From Corynebacterium atrinae (GTDB taxonomy: Bacteria > Actinomycetota > Actinomycetes > Mycobacteriales > Mycobacteriaceae): DNA of 64,000 nt. The notes beneath the pieces were generated by a model. That model was not told where the DNA came from and did no database searches. It worked only from the letters and a program-made list of their open reading frames with translations. The DNA lies in NCBI RefSeq assembly GCF_030408455.1, contig NZ_CP046977.1, forward strand, positions 2,232,001-2,296,000, written 5' to 3'. Shown piece by piece: positions 3,835 through 12,287 of this stretch. Position 1 is the first letter of the stretch, and each line of letters starts with the position of its first letter. The position numbers and the translations under genes were made by a program.

Positions 3835-3864
3835 GGAAACGGCACTCCGTAGAGACCATTTCAG

Positions 3865-3938
3865 CGACCCTGACGGGACTTGAACCCGCGACCTCCGCCG
3901 TGACAGGGCGGCGCGCTAACCAACTGCGCCACAGGGCC
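3865..3938 (-). tRNA. tRNA-Asp (GTC), copy 1
   Basis: 74 nt, acceptor GGCCCTG/CAGGGTC with discriminator G. The anticodon stem CCGCC/GGCGG flanks loop CTGTCAC (anticodon GTC), and the T-loop is TTCAAGT. It lies 30 nt upstream of tRNA-Phe on the same strand. The sequence is identical to the copy at 4557-4630, including a few flanking bases. Confidence 0.97.
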
Positions 3939-4183
3939 TTATTAACTTTTGTGCTTCTTGACACCCCTCGCGGGCTGCCCTGTTGCACGAGAATTCACTT
4001 TACACAGAGTTGGAATGTTCCCACAAATCTGCAGTTCACACCGCTTTTCGGTGGGCCCCCGGCCCCTGCCGACCCTGATCCCGACTTTCTGATCGCGACC
4101 TGAACCACGCTGCGGCGCTTATATCCACGGATCGCCTTTGACCTTTTGCAGCCGACGGCCCCAAAAGTCGGAAGGACGCCTAA

Positions 4184-4207
4184 TCGCGACGCCCTGATCA
4201 CGACCGG
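4184..4207. repeat. Dispersed 24-bp repeat, copy A
   Basis: This 24-mer beginning TCGCGACGCCCTGATC matches 62877-62900 at 22 of 24 positions. An 11-bp piece (CTGATCGCGAC) also occurs at 4089-4099. Both full copies lie within 200 bp of a long inverted repeat and beside tRNA genes. Confidence 0.65.
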
Positions 4208-4375
4208 AACACCGCGCAGTTCCCAAAACCCCCAGTTCATGCTCCGCGAACAGTCCAATTCGTCGAGATCACGATGGATGTATGCCGCACCAGAGCAATT
4301 TTTTCCCCGTTTAGCAGCGGTGTCCTGCGACGACGCCGAAATCCAGACACACATTTTGCTACTTAACCCGACGGC

Positions 4376-4461
4376 GCAAAAGTGCGATATGACTTCACCC
4401 ATTAATCGAGTTACCGAATGTCCCCACTCGATTAATCGGTCAAGTCGAATTGCACTTTTGC
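4376..4461. repeat. Large imperfect inverted repeat (36-nt arms, 14-nt loop)
   Basis: Left arm 4376-4411 and right arm 4426-4461 pair at 30 of 36 positions. The outer 10 bp (GCAAAAGTGC / GCACTTTTGC) and inner 11 bp (ATTAATCGAGT / ACTCGATTAAT) are perfect. No T-run follows either side, so it does not look like a terminator. It could be a MITE-like element, a structured RNA or a double operator. Confidence 0.7.
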
Positions 4462-4507
4462 ACCTACCGCTCATGGCTCGATCGACACCCCCAACCCCTA
4501 GCACGAC

Positions 4508-4547
4508 AGAAGCGCCGGCTCTGGATTTCTCCGGAACCGGCGCTTCT
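4508..4547 (-). terminator. Hairpin terminator after tRNA-Asp copy 2
   Basis: AGAAGCGCCGG (4508-4518) pairs with CCGGCGCTTCT (4537-4547) and can extend inward through mismatches. It sits 10 nt beyond the 3' end of the second tRNA-Asp on the minus strand and likely ends the tRNA-Glu/tRNA-Asp transcript. Confidence 0.65.
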
Positions 4548-4556
4548 CTGCTTCTG

Positions 4557-4630
4557 CGACCCTGACGGGACTTGAACCCGCGACCTCCGCCGTGACAGGG
4601 CGGCGCGCTAACCAACTGCGCCACAGGGCC
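4557..4630 (-). tRNA. tRNA-Asp (GTC), copy 2
   Basis: Identical over all 74 nt to 3865-3938, with acceptor GGCCCTG/CAGGGTC and anticodon GTC. The identity extends 1-2 nt beyond the gene on each side. tRNA-Glu lies 23 nt upstream on the same strand. Confidence 0.97.
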
Positions 4631-4653
4631 TTGAAACATGAGGTTAAACCTCG

Positions 4654-4726
<73 letters not shown>

Positions 4727-5155: not shown

Positions 5156-5479
5156 CTAGTTGATGGCGCATGCGGGCGCGCCCACTAGGCGCGAGAGGCG
5201 ATGCCGCTGGCTCGCGATGAGCCGGTAGATGGCCCCGAGGGGCCGGTCGAGCACGTTGGCATTCACAAGCTTGCCGACGCCCCGCAGCACCCGCCCCTCC
5301 GCCCCGTACGCGAGCGCTGCCCCGATAGCGTGATGCCCGAGCCAGTCTTGGCCGCCGTAGCGGAAGATGGCATGGTTGCGCAGGCTCGCTGGCCGAATGG
5401 TGATGCCCGGCGCGAGTCGCTGCAATTGGGTGGCACCGCGTTGGCAGAAGCCACAGTCGCGGTCGTAGAGGAACTCCAT
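5156..5479 (-). CDS. DCC-family thiol-disulfide oxidoreductase (DUF393)
   Basis: A 107-residue protein starting MEFLYDRDCGFC, the DxDCxxC motif (Cys9, Cys12) that defines DCC proteins, with a thioredoxin-like CxxC. A central YGGQDWLGHHAIG-type region and basic C-terminus are typical. The substrate is unknown. Its stop abuts the csoR stop (convergent), and it diverges from the CDF transporter gene with 35 bp between starts. Confidence 0.8.
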   Translation of the reverse strand: MEFLYDRDCGFCQRGATQLQRLAPGITIRPASLRNHAIFRYGGQDWLGHHAIGAALAYGAEGRVLRGVGKLVNANVLDRPLGAIYRLIASQRHRLSRLVGAPACAIN

Positions 5480-5514: not shown

Positions 5515-6192
5515 ATGAGCACGTCAGTACTGACCACAGAGCGCACGCACCTGCTGCGGCGGCGGATCCGCATCGTTGTTGCCATCACGATCACCTGGAA
5601 CGTGGTCGAGGCCGTCGTCGCCCTCCTCGCGGGTGGGGCGGCTTCCTCCCCCGCTCTCATCGGTTTCGGGCTGGATTCCGTGGTCGAAGTCCTGTCTGCC
5701 GCGGCGGTCGCTTGGCAGTTCGCCTCGCCGGAGCCGGAGAGGCGCGAGAAGGCCGCCCTGCGGTTGATCGCTGTGTCATTCTTCGGCCTCGCCGCCTACG
5801 TCACTATCGACGCCCTCCTATCCCTCACCGGCCTGCGCCAGCCCGAGCATTCCACGGTGGGGATCGTCCTAGCCGCGCTCAGCCTGGCCGTCATGCCTTT
5901 CCTCAGTTGGATCGAGCGGCGCACCGGTCGCGAGCTTGGCTCCGCTTCCGCCATTGCCGATTCCAAGCAGACCCTAATCTGCAGCTACCTCTCGGCAGCC
6001 CTCTTGGTGGGCCTGCTTTTGAACAGCCTCTTCGGCTGGACGTGGGCCGATCCCCTCGCGGCCCTCGTCATCGCTGCCTTTGCCATCCGCGAGGGCAGGG
6101 AGGCGTGGCAGGGCGACGCCTGTTGTGCCACGCCAGTCGGGTCACTCACTGGCGAGCGTCACGATTGCTGCGCTGAGGACGCACCAAGGTAA
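5515..6192 (+). CDS. Cation diffusion facilitator family transporter
   Basis: A 225-residue membrane protein with about five or six predicted helices (WNVVEAVVALLAG, SPALIGFGLDSVVEVLSAAAVAW, FFGLAAYVTIDALLS, and LICSYLSAALLVGLLL). The polar helix motif GFGLDSVVEV and ADSKQT match CDF proteins that exchange divalent metal for protons. The C-terminal tail has two Cys pairs (DACCAT and HDCCAED), likely metal ligands. It is shorter than classic CDF exporters (about 300 residues) and lacks the full cytoplasmic domain. Metal specificity is unknown; proximity to csoR hints at thiophilic metals. A TAGAGT box lies 9 nt before the ATG. Confidence 0.8.
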   Translation: MSTSVLTTERTHLLRRRIRIVVAITITWNVVEAVVALLAGGAASSPALIGFGLDSVVEVLSAAAVAWQFASPEPERREKAALRLIAVSFFGLAAYVTIDALLSLTGLRQPEHSTVGIVLAALSLAVMPFLSWIERRTGRELGSASAIADSKQTLICSYLSAALLVGLLLNSLFGWTWADPLAALVIAAFAIREGREAWQGDACCATPVGSLTGERHDCCAEDAPR

Positions 6193-6298
6193 TCAGGAGC
6201 ATCGGCTCAAGTTCCTCCCCGGCATCGCAGTCTCGCGGACGCTAGTAGTCACCGGGCCTTAGTGGCTCTTTCGCCTGAAGTGGCTGATAATGGGCGGC

Positions 6299-6430
6299 AT
6301 GGGACTACCCGAAGCCTGGTGTAAGGCACAAGCGCCGTGGGCGCTCTATAGGCGAGACCGGACCTCGAAGTTTCACGCCACTGAAACTCGTCTGGCACCC
6401 ACACCTTCCGTGGACGCTACCCTTCAGTAG
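6299..6430 (+). CDS. Possible leaderless 43-residue protein, unknown
   Basis: A 44-codon frame starting MGLPEAWCKAQAPWALYRR and ending at TAG. A good -10 (GATAAT, 6286-6291) sits exactly 7 nt before the ATG, the spacing seen for leaderless genes elsewhere in this window. No -35 or homologue is recognised. An inverted repeat AGTTTC/GAAACT lies inside it, so the region could instead be leader or regulatory DNA for the next gene. Confidence 0.3.
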   Translation: MGLPEAWCKAQAPWALYRRDRTSKFHATETRLAPTPSVDATLQ

Positions 6431-6468
6431 CTCAGTTTCGGGTGAAGATCTGGAGGGAGTTGGAATCA

Positions 6469-6846
6469 GTGGACGACAGAATCCAGCGGCAAGCAGCGGC
6501 ACGGGCCGGTGAACTACCCGGTGCTTACCTCGATCACCCCTTCGGACCGGACTGGGATGTCTTCAAGGTCCGAGAAAAGGTTTTTATGCTGCAGACGAAG
6601 CTCCACGGGAAGCCCCTCGTAACCCTCAAGGCTGACCCGAGTGTGAGCCAATTGCTCCGAAGCAGCCACCAGAGCATCACGCCGGGCTATCACATGAACA
6701 AGAAGCACTGGATCACGCTGCACCCCGGCGGTGATCTCGACCGGCAGTTCGTCGAAGACCTCGTCACCGAGTCTTATTTGCTCGTGATTGAACGCAACCT
6801 GCCCAAGTCGAGGTGGCCGGTCGACCCGGCCACTTTTGGCAGGTAA
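6469..6846 (+). CDS. MmcQ/YjbR-family protein (DUF419)
   Basis: A 125-residue protein of the MmcQ/YjbR fold, which has a CyaY-like alpha/beta structure and is often annotated as DNA-binding with little direct evidence. Typical features are the early PFGPDWDVFKVREKVF segment, LVTLKADP, the basic GYHMNKKHWITL strand and a final ESYLLV helix. GTG 6469 is preferred over GTG 6442 because GGAGGGAG (6452-6459) precedes it by 9 nt and the length then fits the family. A 276-bp gap upstream contains only the possible small ORF. Confidence 0.8.
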   Translation: MDDRIQRQAAARAGELPGAYLDHPFGPDWDVFKVREKVFMLQTKLHGKPLVTLKADPSVSQLLRSSHQSITPGYHMNKKHWITLHPGGDLDRQFVEDLVTESYLLVIERNLPKSRWPVDPATFGR

Positions 6847-6900
6847 CTAAGAATTGTCCAGCCCATTCCGGGCTAGCCTCACCGCTGTTAAGGTTTAGAC

Positions 6901-7575
6901 ATGAATGCCAACGACAGGCCCGAGATCATCCTCCCAAGCGGACGCCCGGCATCTTCCATCTTTGACGCTGACACCTTGGATGGCATGTGGCCGCACCTGC
7001 TCATCCCCCGCCCCACCGACTCCACTGCGTCGCTGCAGGCAAGCATGCTGGAACTGGCGTCAGCCGGGGTTATTCCAGTGCCCGATGAGGGGCCTGAAGT
7101 CTTCGGCGAACTTGCTGAGGCACTGTGGCAGGCTCGGCTCGCCCAGCAAAGCGAGTGGCCGGCTGAAGGCTGGCCCCTCGATCGCATCGCTGGCCGCCTT
7201 CGCGAACAGGGCATCGCAGCCGAGTGGGCGTTGCCCGTCAACAACGAAGCAGACGCCGTCGATGCCCTGGCACCCCATCGGGCAGCCGGGCTACGAGGTG
7301 CAGTCGTGATCTATGAGTCTCAAGCCGTTGAGCTAGCACTCCAACTGGGCGATGCAAGTGTCGTCACTGAAGCATTCGTGACACCCAAGCGCAAGGGTTT
7401 CTTCGGCAAACCGCAGTTCGACGTTCGCGAGTACCAAGCCAGCTGCGAGTTCATCTCGACACAGCTAGTCAACGCCGCCCGAGCTGAAGGAGTCGAAGCT
7501 AGCTGGGACGGGGACTGGGAACGCACTGTCGTGCTCCACAATGTGCAGTACATGGCGCGTTTGCCCCAGAACTAG
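6901..7575 (+). CDS. Conserved hypothetical protein, function unknown
   Basis: A 224-residue soluble protein. The last 100 residues contain charged, alternating strand/helix segments (VVIYESQAVELALQLGD, VREYQASCEFISTQLVNAARAEG, TVVLHNVQYMAR). The pattern is reminiscent of DUF6891-type proteins, but I cannot confirm that. No signal peptide or catalytic motif is seen. It lies 54 bp after the MmcQ gene on the same strand and ends before the variable defence region. Confidence 0.6.
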   Translation: MNANDRPEIILPSGRPASSIFDADTLDGMWPHLLIPRPTDSTASLQASMLELASAGVIPVPDEGPEVFGELAEALWQARLAQQSEWPAEGWPLDRIAGRLREQGIAAEWALPVNNEADAVDALAPHRAAGLRGAVVIYESQAVELALQLGDASVVTEAFVTPKRKGFFGKPQFDVREYQASCEFISTQLVNAARAEGVEASWDGDWERTVVLHNVQYMARLPQN

Positions 7576-7587
7576 CCAAACGCGGGT

Positions 7588-7791
7588 CTAATCAACGTCG
7601 TACTGGTAAGCCCTGGGGTTTCCCGAGTGTTTCGGTCCGCGGACGACGTGACCATTCGCGGCAAAGCCACGGGTACGAGCTCGATCTACCACGGAGGCAA
7701 AGGCTGCTTCGCGCGCCCGAAGACCGAGTCTCCCCGGAGCAGAGGTCGCAAGACTCGCTCGGGTCTCTAGGCTGTCACCCCGGACCAGCAC
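7588..7791 (-). pseudogene. Possible C-terminal gene remnant downstream of ietS
   Basis: A 67-codon minus-strand frame whose last 40 residues (ASVVDRARTRGFAANGHV...) look protein-like, but there is no ribosome site and the first part reads as low-complexity GC-rich sequence. It lies 46 bp beyond the subtilase stop on the same strand. It could be the tail of a decayed gene or a chance frame. The 262 bp between 7576 and 7837 hold nothing else visible. Confidence 0.25.
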
Positions 7792-7837
7792 CGCAGCTGA
7801 CTTCTCTGCAACGGGACGCTCTCGCTGGGCGCGAGCG

Positions 7838-10399
7838 TCAGACCTCGACTACCGTCGCAACCTGTTGATAGACGGGAGTCCAGAGGTCAACATCAACCTC
7901 CGGCGCCTCGATACTGACTACGAGTGAGTAGTTGACGCCCTTTTCGCTCTGGTCCATTTTCGGTCGGTTTTTCCACCACCCCGCGACGGGGTAGACAACA
8001 ACCGCCCCTTTCGCAGCGAGGTCGACCGCGGGCCCCGTCCAGATATCGGTGTGCAGTGAGCCCGTGGAGGTTTGCTGGTCGCGACCGAACAGCCAACCGG
8101 TCTCGGTTTTGAGGCTCAGCGGCTTCTCACCTTCGTTCCGGGCGTGTTTGTTGACGCGTTGGCGGAACGCGACAAGGTTGTCTTCAGGGCGCTTCATTGC
8201 GAAACGCAGCCCGTGGGACGGATACACATATCGGCCCGTCCACCCGCGCCTTGATGGGTTCGGTTCCACAAAGTACGAAAGCGTGACGCGTAGTCGGACC
8301 TCGGTCTCTCCGAGCGCGGACAAAGCGTCGATGGGCCAGGGTAAGTGGTGCAGGTTCATTTCGCGAGCTTTGCCACTGCTGGAGTTGCCCTCGCGCTCAT
8401 AGGGGTGGATCACAGCCTCGTCGACCAGTGTCAGCGCGTTGGTCGCGCTGCGAGTGGCACGTTCCAGGTCAGGTACCCCCATGCCATAGCGGCGGAGCAG
8501 GTTGACTGCGGCGCCCTTATTGGTCGCGGCGTCGATGCGCGCCCGCATCTGAGGTGTCCACTGGGCGGAGTGGACAACAAGTGCGCGAATTGTCTCGGGC
8601 CTTAGGTGAGGGTAAGCCGCGCGGATGTCGGCCGCGATCGATGCAACATGAGCTGTTGCGGCCGAGGTGTCTCGCGTCGTCGTGAAGTAACCCTCGCCCG
8701 GGCGTTGCAGGCGAGTGGTCAGGATCGCGAGGTTCTCAGGAGTATCAACTCCGGTGCCATCCGGAGTGACAGCGAGGTTACCACCTGGTGCAACGACATC
8801 CGGCTTGAACGGCCATCTCTTCTGGTCGAAGGACACCGAGGTGCGGCTGGTTGGTGATAGTTCACCCCGGGCTGCGATCGGCACGTACCCTGTAAAAATG
8901 TCTGGAGCATGATCCATTGCGTCGTGCTCGGCGTAGGCTCCAACTACGAGTGCGTTCCATGCTTGCGCGGGGTCTTCGACGCTCTCTGCATCGCTTCGGT
9001 CGAGGTGATCGTCCTCCGCTCGAACGTCGCGAATGTTTCCCGCTGAAACAACGAATAGTCGGGGCGTCGGAGCCTCGTTTCGATCCAGGTAGGAAAGTTT
9101 AGGGACGCTGTCGTCGATGGCCCGGCCAAAGATCAGAGCGTCCAGTGTGGCTGACCATGCGGTTGGTCGACCCGACTCCTGCTTCGGTCGGTCCTCTACC
9201 CGGTGCCCCGGGTGCGGCGCCGCTGCTGGTGCAGTGATGGCCAGCATGAAAACTCGGGTGCGATTCCGAGCTGAAATCTCTGGTTGATCGACCGCTCGGG
9301 CAGTGACGGCTCCGTATACGTCGGGATCGTTGCCACCGGTGTCGGGGAGGAGCTTCACAGATTCGAGCCGATGTTTAAGTTGAACGCGCTGTTGGGTAGT
9401 GATGGCAGCCTGCATGTCTCCATAGAGCGCGAGGCCGGCCATCTCGGTGCCGTGTCCATGGATCGCAACGTCTTTGCGCCAACTCGGCTCAACCGCATGC
9501 AGGTCAGCGGCTACCAGCGACTCTTCCAGTAGCGGGTGCCCGGCTTGCACGCCGCGGTCGAGGATGCATACGACCGGAGCGTCGTCGCGCGCGTGGTCTA
9601 CACGGGATTGCAGCTCACTCACCCATTCACTCTGCTCGACCGCAGACAGCTCCGGAAGGAACGAGGCTAGTTCGTGGGGGCGTCGCAACTCGGCAATGTC
9701 ATCGATGCTGCGGAAGGTCATTGCGAGTTGTTCACTGGTGGCGCGCAGGAGGACGACGGTTCGGTCGCCAAATCCGAGGTAATGGTCACTCATCGGGAGA
9801 TGATGCTGCCGGGCGTAATCCGCTAACCGAGCGTGTTCCTTGCCGTCAACGGCGCGGAGCCAGACCTCCCACCAACAGGACCGAGTTGGATCGGCGGGAA
9901 ACTCATCTGCAGAGTCGGTCCACAACTCGTGTATCGTCGCACGGCGAATAGACGCGATGCCCTCGATCAGCGTTGCATTCTTCGGTTTCCCGCCCACGGC
10001 TTCAGTCGTCTCGACGTACCGTTCAAGCTTCTTGAGGAAGAACTCCTTCTGCCCATCAGGGATGAAAACCGTCGCGTTCACGACGGTGCCGTGACGAGTT
10101 TCCTCCCTCTGGACGGCCACAAGCTCTGGTTGAGAGCCGAGGCGGCGTGACTCCAGACTCTCGAACATCAAGTCGAGGCCAGGGAAGGACGCGAAGGTGA
10201 GGTACGTACCTGTAGTCTCCGGTTCGTCTATGGGAAGCTTCCAGGCCGCCTCGAACTCTTCATTGAGTTGTTTCCCGTGCTCCTTTCGGCTACCGCTGAA
10301 GCCACCGCCGCCGCTCGTTACCGGGGTACTGTTGGGCGTGAAAGGCTCGGACGCGGGCTGCGTCGACACGAAGATATGCGGGCGGTCTCGTTCAGTCAT
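7838..10399 (-). CDS. ietS: Subtilisin-like serine protease of an IetAS-type defence module
   Basis: An 853-residue S8-family protease without signal peptide, so probably cytoplasmic. Catalytic Asp281 (CILDRGVQAGHPLL), His316 (IHGHGTEMAG) and Ser579 (TTRDTSAATAHVA) are all present, with the oxyanion Asn455 in VVSAGN. About 270 residues precede the protease domain and about 260 follow it; neither part is recognised. It is encoded 5 bp after an AAA-ATPase gene. This pairing is the known IetAS architecture: a plasmid-stability pair from Agrobacterium that is also listed as an anti-phage system. Roles (protease as effector, ATPase as controller) are inferred from that literature. Confidence 0.85.
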   Translation of the reverse strand: MTERDRPHIFVSTQPASEPFTPNSTPVTSGGGGFSGSRKEHGKQLNEEFEAAWKLPIDEPETTGTYLTFASFPGLDLMFESLESRRLGSQPELVAVQREETRHGTVVNATVFIPDGQKEFFLKKLERYVETTEAVGGKPKNATLIEGIASIRRATIHELWTDSADEFPADPTRSCWWEVWLRAVDGKEHARLADYARQHHLPMSDHYLGFGDRTVVLLRATSEQLAMTFRSIDDIAELRRPHELASFLPELSAVEQSEWVSELQSRVDHARDDAPVVCILDRGVQAGHPLLEESLVAADLHAVEPSWRKDVAIHGHGTEMAGLALYGDMQAAITTQQRVQLKHRLESVKLLPDTGGNDPDVYGAVTARAVDQPEISARNRTRVFMLAITAPAAAPHPGHRVEDRPKQESGRPTAWSATLDALIFGRAIDDSVPKLSYLDRNEAPTPRLFVVSAGNIRDVRAEDDHLDRSDAESVEDPAQAWNALVVGAYAEHDAMDHAPDIFTGYVPIAARGELSPTSRTSVSFDQKRWPFKPDVVAPGGNLAVTPDGTGVDTPENLAILTTRLQRPGEGYFTTTRDTSAATAHVASIAADIRAAYPHLRPETIRALVVHSAQWTPQMRARIDAATNKGAAVNLLRRYGMGVPDLERATRSATNALTLVDEAVIHPYEREGNSSSGKAREMNLHHLPWPIDALSALGETEVRLRVTLSYFVEPNPSRRGWTGRYVYPSHGLRFAMKRPEDNLVAFRQRVNKHARNEGEKPLSLKTETGWLFGRDQQTSTGSLHTDIWTGPAVDLAAKGAVVVYPVAGWWKNRPKMDQSEKGVNYSLVVSIEAPEVDVDLWTPVYQQVATVVEV

Positions 10400-10404
10400 C
10401 TCAG

Positions 10405-11403
10405 TTAGACGGTCCCGTCAGCTCGACGGCGTATGCGAGGCCGTTCTTCCAAAGCAATGACAACATCACCGGTCCGCACCCGGGTGCGATCGCTCAGAAT
10501 GGTTCGCTTCGCTGCGTTCTCAGCGGCAGTCGCGATTTCAGCATGACTCAGACCGCGAGCCGCAGGGATGATGCGAGTCCAGCTCAAATTGGAGATTTGG
10601 AACGAGGCGAGCCGGTTCTTGATGACCGACTCGACTGCGGCATCATCTGGAAGCGCGAAGTCCATCACGGTGTCAAATCGGCGGAACAGTGCGTTGTCCA
10701 ACAGGCTCGGGTGGTTGGTGGCCGCGATGATCACACTGTCTGAGGTGTCTTCTTCGAGGAACTGCAAGAACGAGTTGAGTACTCGGCGAATCTCGCCCAC
10801 ATCGTTCTGGGCAGCTCGGTCGCCGCCGAGTGCATCGACCTCATCAAAAAGATATACACCTCGGGTCTCGGCCAGTGCGTCGAACACAAGACGCAGCTTC
10901 GCCGCCGTCTCGCCCATGAACTTGGTCAAAACCGTGTCGAGTCTGATCGAGAAAAGTGGAAGCCCGAGCTCACCCGCGATCACACGCGCAGTGGAAGTTT
11001 TCCCGGTGCCCGGCGGTCCCGTAAGAAGAAGACGGCGGGCAGGAGCAAAGCCGTGACGAGCAAGCGCATCGCGCTGTCTTTGTTCCAGCAGCACATGCGT
11101 TACCCGCTCTCGGAGACCGTCCGCGAGCACGAGATCGCTCAGCCTGGCCTCAGGGTACGAAACGTTTAGCAGCGCCCCGAGTTCTCCCCTCGGCTGAGAG
11201 AACGGAACCACAGCGGCAATGCGCGCTCGCTGTCCAGTTCGATCACGGAGGTCGTTCACGAGATCGCGAAGCTCTTGAGCAAACTTCGACTGCCCGGCAC
11301 GAGCGGCTTTAGCCGCAACTTGCATGGCAACGGCGTAGAACTGGGGATCGTCGCCGTCGGCGTGACTCTTAACGAGTGCCTTGAGCTGATCGTTGGTCGC
11401 CAT
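10405..11403 (-). CDS. ietA: AAA-family ATPase partner of the subtilase (IetA-like)
   Basis: A 332-residue protein with a helical N-terminus (1-90) and one AAA+ domain: Walker A GPPGTGKT (129-136), Walker B YLFDEVD (184-190), sensor-1 ATN (228-230) and arginine finger RRFD (241-244), followed by a small helical lid domain. The ATG at 11403 has a very strong AGGAGG (11411-11416) at 7 nt; an in-frame extension to 11580 has no support. It is translated just ahead of the protease gene in one operon. It probably senses or remodels a target that the protease cleaves (inference from IetAS). Confidence 0.85.
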   Translation of the reverse strand: MATNDQLKALVKSHADGDDPQFYAVAMQVAAKAARAGQSKFAQELRDLVNDLRDRTGQRARIAAVVPFSQPRGELGALLNVSYPEARLSDLVLADGLRERVTHVLLEQRQRDALARHGFAPARRLLLTGPPGTGKTSTARVIAGELGLPLFSIRLDTVLTKFMGETAAKLRLVFDALAETRGVYLFDEVDALGGDRAAQNDVGEIRRVLNSFLQFLEEDTSDSVIIAATNHPSLLDNALFRRFDTVMDFALPDDAAVESVIKNRLASFQISNLSWTRIIPAARGLSHAEIATAAENAAKRTILSDRTRVRTGDVVIALEERPRIRRRADGTV

Positions 11404-11609
11404 CAGGGGACCTCCTTTCAGCGGCACGCCTCCAAAACCTGGTGTTGACACTCCAAGCGTACCGGTCGCGGCCTCACGAGGCGGGGGCAACAGGCAGTAA
11501 GAGGCGAAGTCGCGCCAGAGAGTCTTGTGCTGCAGGTGCGCGACGCGCCCGGTTCGACGACTGTCCCCTTCGCCGACCATCGCCCACGATGGAAGTCACA
11601 AAGGCGGAG

Positions 11610-11751
11610 TGATATGTCCCGTGCTCAATGGAGGGTGCAAACTTGCACATCCTCAAGGAATCTATCAATTCCCAGGAAGTACCCCGACGAGCTCAAAGCA
11701 CGCGCCATCGAATTCGTCATCCACGCCCAATCCGACTCCACCACCGCGCAA
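11610..11751 (+). mobile_element. IS3-family insertion sequence remnant (5' end, start of orfA)
   Basis: The plus strand encodes IPRKYPDELKARAIEFVI, the standard beginning of IS3-family OrfA transposases, then breaks off after 28 codons at about 11751. The usual ATG is ATT here, so the frame is dead. The left end near TGATATGTCCC (11610) is where a terminal repeat would lie; no right end or orfB is present. It interrupts the integrase remnant on the opposite strand, so it arrived after the integrase. Confidence 0.6.
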
Positions 11752-12068: not shown

Positions 12069-12214
12069 AACCGTGCCTCAACTACCCCTGCTCGGTACCG
12101 GACAGTCGCGCCGGGCAAAGGTGTCGTGCCATAATGGATCTGTCCTTGAGCAGGACATTGACGTTTCTGACTAGTGGCACGAGAGTGTAAAAACACCCTC
12201 TGACCTGGTAATAG

Positions 12215-12287
12215 TGGGCCCCGTGGGGCTCGAACCCACGACCTGCGGATTAAAAGTCCGTAGCTCTACCAACTGAGCTAGAGGCCC
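12215..12287 (-). tRNA. tRNA-Lys (TTT)
   Basis: 73 nt, acceptor GGGCCTC with GGGGCCC (one T-G pair), discriminator A. D-arm GCTC/GAGC, anticodon stem ACGGA/TCCGC with an A-C at its base, loop CTTTTAA (anticodon TTT), T-arm GTGGG/CCCAC. A weak hairpin (12181-12200) follows its 3' end. No second copy of its 3' half is visible nearby, so no intact att pair was found. Confidence 0.96.

Follow-up and report, generated by a model that had tools for sequence, protein, structure and literature searches.

An intact, horizontally acquired IetAS gene pair on the chromosome of Corynebacterium atrinae

The chromosome of Corynebacterium atrinae carries a pair of genes that, judged from their sequences and those of their relatives, is IetAS, a known kind of system with a presumed role in cell defence or in the stability of mobile DNA, present here as a real, intact and horizontally acquired copy. 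The pair lies in a stretch of 64,000 nucleotides (hereafter the window), in which ietA, encoding an AAA+ ATPase, is followed on the minus strand by ietS, encoding an S8 subtilase, with 5 bp between the two genes, exactly as an earlier note on this DNA had placed them (Table 1). The ATG of ietA comes after the ribosome site AAAGGAGG; the strong site that had been ascribed to the ATPase is indeed its own, and CTGAG, the five bases immediately ahead of ietS, represents a weak site. The longest mechanically derived ORF over ietA, of 391 aa with a start at 11580, was the one used in the PADLOC IetA and Pfam AAA searches; the start at 11403 is common to nine aligned sequences. In an alignment of 16 upstream regions, read by eye with no comparison with chance, 15 show a TANNNT element at one shared position, that of the window included; many actinobacterial promoters have a -10 box of this form. 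A scan for the sigma-70 consensus found no promoter. The genome holds a single copy of IetS. Both genes are under purifying selection, with dN/dS values of 0.04-0.13 relative to the two nearest relatives, Micrococcales bacterium 31B and Propionicicella superfundia, and of 0.065 for ietS relative to the next one (L029).

Table 1. Features of the ietA-ietS pair and its surroundings (positions are those of the window)
Feature	Position	Strand	Remarks
tRNA-Glu	4653-4726		flanking tRNA on the other side of the pair
transferred unit	7812..11608	-	84.8% DNA identity over 3803 aligned columns with Micrococcales bacterium 31B (L030)
ietS, S8 subtilase, 853 aa, full triad	7838..10399	-	PADLOC IetS PDLC02198, 4.4e-36; Pfam Peptidase_S8, 2.4e-55; 39% identity with pTi IetS over 830 aa
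C-terminal part of IetS, from about residue 642, after the S8 domain	7838..8476	-	no Pfam domain; common to relatives
N-terminal part of IetS, first 262 residues	9614..10399	-	no Pfam domain; common to relatives (alignment A5)
ietA, AAA+ ATPase, 332 aa	10405..11403	-	PADLOC IetA PDLC02196, 1.4e-74; Pfam AAA, 1.4e-30; 55% identity with pTi IetA over 324 aa
upstream region shared with L030	11404..11608	-	TANNNT -10-like element (TACGCT in the window); ribosome site AAAGGAGG
IS3-family element, terminal 133-139 bp	11609..11747	+	matches 7 further genomic sites at 82-92% identity
truncated tyrosine integrase, N-terminal 107 aa	11748..12068	-	41% identity with the integrase of mycobacteriophage Piro94, 3e-14
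tRNA-Lys, possible attachment site	12214..12287	-	next to the integrase remnant

The assignment to IetAS, which the earlier note had made from the gene pairing and had proposed to check with a profile search, is borne out by matches of both proteins to the respective PADLOC models and by homology over nearly their full length to an AAA+/S8 pair on pTi_GV3101, a record with one matching place for the pair. Judging from the strain, derived from C58, and from the gene content, we take this Ti-plasmid pair to be the founding IetAS (Yamamoto 2009). The NCBIfam models NF042959 and NF042956 give the window pair 214.7 bits of the required 510 and 47.8 of 900, respectively, and the C58 Ti pair likewise misses both cut-offs, with 198.8 and 39.9 bits. 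The cut-offs therefore give no ground for setting the window pair apart from the founding branch, and since the Ti scores are as low as those of the window, the NCBIfam models seem to describe another branch; the window pair belongs with that of the Ti plasmid. The antiphage work of Gao in 2020 may also concern another branch of IetAS. The PADLOC IetS models are matched by all 55 members of an alignment of IetS (A3; the window protein and those of 54 hand-picked loci out of 80 fetched, truncated and interrupted loci being among those omitted), with a best E-value of 4e-44, and no member appears to score as would be expected had a PADLOC IetS model been built on its branch.

The catalytic residues of IetS occur in the contexts CILD281RGV, IHGH316GTE, SAGN455IRD and RDTS579AAT, and D281, H316, N455 and S579 are invariant across the 55 aligned proteins, so the triad of Asp281, His316 and Ser579 read in the earlier note is complete. 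IetA contains the motifs GPPGTGKT (129), FDEVDA (186), TNHP (229) and RRFD (241), presumably the Walker A, Walker B, sensor and arginine finger motifs, respectively; the intact triad and the ATPase motifs expected of IetAS are thus both found. IetS is called cytoplasmic here because its N-terminus, judged by eye, lacks a hydrophobic signal-like stretch. The Pfam Peptidase_S8 domain covers residues 273-641 and is the sole domain returned by a Pfam scan for each of the 55 members, leaving the flanking parts unnamed. These parts had been proposed to be new, but they are common to the aligned relatives, namely, the 55 sequences of A3 and 30 chosen sequences, including that of the window, in an alignment of the N-terminal 262 residues (A5), and therefore are family domains without a Pfam name rather than additions peculiar to the window protein. 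In A5, 18 columns are invariant, starting with that of residue 8, and the C-terminal part has many invariant columns in A3, including W688, P713, H783 and D785. Conservation is lower over roughly the first 60 residues, given that 10 of the 80 fetched loci (out of at least 574) match IetS only from residue 61-64 onward. A strand-helix-strand pattern noticed by eye in the N-terminal part had prompted the idea of an I9-type propeptide, and 17 I9 stretches were cut from genomes, the 11 without a long insert being aligned and the resulting profile set against eight pieces, six from IetS (four N-terminal and two C-terminal) and two from IetA. The hhalign probability was not significant, at 0.1-1.3% for every piece, and was highest for a C-terminal piece of IetS, the N-terminal pieces being no better than the others, and the assignment was not adopted.

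Transfer of the ietA-ietS pair, as proposed in the earlier note, is well supported by sequence comparison. Besides the unit shared with Micrococcales bacterium 31B, a member of another order (Table 1), positions 7837-11519 are 79.5% identical in DNA to the corresponding locus of P. superfundia (L028), and the rest of the window between 2501 and 14500 has no further match to either locus. In a tree of 66 IetS rows, obtained by a quick method without bootstrap, the window protein groups with these two relatives with SH-aLRT values of 99 and 100, and a copy from the same genus (G676) falls outside this group and inside the same 12-row clade. Stretches from six relatives were fetched, four of which (L136-L139) span the interval from CsoR to tRNA-Lys (L140 and L141 do not, L141 holding the G676 IetAS elsewhere), and searches with IetA, IetS and the integrase gave no match within this interval in any of the four. 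The interval is about 1.8-4.3 kb in these relatives versus about 7 kb in the window, which marks it as a variable site. The GC content of 0.585-0.622 in windows covering 7501-11500 does not differ from that of the neighbourhood, so base composition provides no evidence for transfer. The cation efflux, YjbR and DUF6891 genes at 5515-7575 have no tblastn match in the four spanning relatives, so this segment is variable as well; a DCC1-like gene at 5156-5479 is present in three of the four.

The mobile-element remnants described beside the pair are both real, and the pair does lie between tRNA genes, tRNA-Glu and tRNA-Lys (Table 1). Four of the seven matches of the IS3-family remnant are near-complete copies of about 1.3 kb, one of them with HTH_Tnp_1 and rve domains, and the match of the integrase remnant to Phage_int_SAM_3 is below the cut-off. 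When up to three mismatches are allowed, the last 23 bases at the 3' end of tRNA-Lys have a single match in the window, giving no second att copy, and hence tRNA-Lys is only suggested as the integration site. The upstream end of the shared unit, at 11608, abuts the IS3 end at 11609 and may mark where the IS element inserted and not where the transferred DNA originally ended. Two tRNA-Asp genes at 3860-4632 are 99% identical over 81 nt and are separated by 692 bp, within which lies an imperfect inverted repeat of 39 nt; L137-L139 have the same tRNA-Asp pair at closer spacing.

The earlier note had further expected a defence island at this place; instead, the pair is a lone two-gene unit. A control set of 44 other ORFs, hand-chosen from the 107 window ORFs of at least 150 aa, and thus unmatched and from one genome, matches only one PADLOC model at E<=1e-20, namely, mads_3, in two ORFs that may be ordinary kinases (best E-value 1.5e-34). 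In the relatives, the 104 nearest of 286 flanking ORFs, from 66 loci, match 132 PADLOC models at the same threshold, overlapping models for one methyltransferase being counted separately, and 24 of the 25 models listed are methyltransferases. One type III methyltransferase model matches 6 of these 104 ORFs, compared with another model in 2 of the 44 unmatched window ORFs.

Relatives of IetS were found in at least 574 stretches of genome contigs, belonging to several phyla by record titles, and 80 loci were kept. Of these 80, 76 have the AAA+ gene directly upstream of the S8 gene, as in the window, and the remaining four have an ietS match that starts no more than 576 bases from the end of a contig. 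Within the genus, the IetAS family is rare. A search of 121 genomes with IetA gave matches at E<=1e-20 in 103, among which only G000, G676 (62%), G669 (53%) and G643 (44%) were clear on reading; G594 and G645 (35%, with IetA-sized frames of 324-326 aa) may be IetA-like, in G692 there are three, at 33-39%, and the bulk of the others (30-37%, in frames of about 670-950 aa) are probably FtsH. At the level of the family, 3 of the 201 genomes searched match IetS, one of them only in part, and at that of the phylum 7 of 396, two of them in part. No paper on IetAS together with Corynebacterium was found in the literature collection searched. The copy of G676 (on L141), with IetA and IetS 62% and 54% identical to those of the window, is a second, diverged IetAS of the same genus. 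At a distance of about 2 kb from it is a paralogue of the CoA-transferase encoded near the window pair, which may be a coincidence. In a Thermoflexaceae MAG (L075, 8670-9784), ietS is broken by about 1.1 kb carrying a transposase frame, presumably IS630-like; in L049, with about 93% identical DNA, it is unbroken. P. superfundia encodes a second S8 protein (G724 contig 5, about 149749-150879), which scores 81.2 bits with the NCBIfam IteS model, compared with 35.2 for its IetS.

From these comparisons, we infer a defence function for the pair, and the explanation moderately favoured is a toxin-antitoxin-like module, with IetA holding IetS in check, that also has a role in defence. Under this scheme, ietA would be translated first, from its strong ribosome site, and ietS, with its weak site 5 bp downstream, would be translationally coupled to it, so that the ATPase would be in excess. 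The ring-forming AAA+ ATPase would bind IetS and hold the subtilase off until an incoming phage or plasmid disturbs IetA and IetS is released or aimed at its substrates; the ensuing proteolysis would stop growth, such that phage spread is blocked or cells that lose the DNA bearing the pair are selected against. Besides the profile matches, the homology to the pTi pair, the adjacency of the two genes, the invariant active site and the purifying selection described above, this reading is favoured because, in SgiAT, an IetAS homologue studied in Escherichia coli, the S8 protein acts as the toxin and the AAA protein as the antitoxin (PMC5006074), because synergy of IetAS with Zorya II is reported from antiphage experiments by others (PMC13427033), and because methyltransferase models often match the nearest flanking ORFs of the relatives. 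The same sources also state that SgiAT expressed from its own promoter gave no post-segregational killing, which counts against the proposed mechanism (PMC5006074), and that IetAS had no non-additive effect with Kiwa (PMC13427033). The missed NCBIfam cut-offs, the possible origin of the antiphage work in another branch and the unmatched single-genome control for the flanking genes count against it as well. The mechanism of IetAS is termed unknown or not fully elucidated in two further papers (PMC11878078, PMC12755874).

The pair might instead serve primarily the mobile DNA that carries it, through stability and exclusion of relatives rather than action against phages. A paper title cited in PMC5006074 presents the founding pair as a toxin-antitoxin system that serves the stability and incompatibility of the Ti plasmid, and homologues occur in 484 of the 72,556 plasmid records, including 340 typed as conjugative, as against 2 of 50,697 phage records, although 213 of the 484 are from Klebsiella and therefore redundant, and 21 loci lie on viral contigs. 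This possibility, the main rival, is nevertheless rather unlikely: methyltransferase models are frequent in the nearest flanking ORFs of the relatives, and the window pair stands alone on a chromosome by a truncated integrase and is under purifying selection, although no intact element that it could stabilise was seen at its side.

Alternatively, instead of an antitoxin, IetA could be mainly an unfoldase, which would hand selected proteins to IetS in the manner of ClpX and ClpP, the two forming an ATP-dependent protease. Its AAA core is close to unfoldases of the Cdc48/p97 and FtsH/PAN types, and the two genes keep together in nearly all fetched loci; however, SgiT, the homologous S8 protein, was judged to be the toxin and its ATPase the antitoxin (PMC5006074), so the ATPase seems unneeded for activity, which makes such a protease quite unlikely. 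A related idea, in our view improbable, is that IetS is an ATP-gated cytoplasmic subtilase that docks on the IetA ring through its N- and C-terminal parts, which are conserved but unnamed; if true, it would represent a new AAA+ protease architecture, with a subtilase as the cutter rather than ClpP, HslV or a zinc protease. Finally, TIGR03921 matches IetS weakly (39.2 bits versus a cut-off of 278.75), as might be expected of an unrelated or housekeeping subtilase resembling the mycosins of type VII secretion, but the partner of IetS is IetA-like and IetS is homologous to the pTi protease over nearly its whole length, so that this reading is highly improbable. The toxin-antitoxin-like module with a defence role thus remains the preferred interpretation.

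The window pair is an ordinary but well-founded case, an intact transferred member of a known system, from a branch that is under-called by current annotation models. Because the founding branch misses the NCBIfam cut-offs, counts of IetAS obtained with such models are probably too low. This branch is widespread and moves between orders of Actinomycetota as a compact unit of two genes. Being small, intact and actinobacterial, the window copy offers a usable test object for studies of the mechanism.

Among known systems, the IetAS of the Agrobacterium C58 Ti plasmid shares with the window pair the gene order, the combination of an AAA+ and an S8 protein, and the homology of both products given in Table 1, but is borne by a plasmid, whereas the window copy is chromosomal and belongs to an actinobacterial clade of the IetS tree. 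SgiAT of Salmonella genomic island 1 resembles IetAS in comprising an AAA antitoxin and an S8 toxin and is reported to be homologous to IetA (50%) and IetS (36%) (PMC5006074). The NCBIfam IteA/IteS and PADLOC IetA/IetS models describe the same domains as those of the window pair and match it significantly. The pairs of Micrococcales bacterium 31B and P. superfundia are the closest in sequence, with IetS 88% and 85% and IetA 91% and 94% identical to those of the window, respectively, but their hosts belong to other orders of Actinomycetota, and the DNA similarity ends at the limits of 7812-11608 and 7837-11519.
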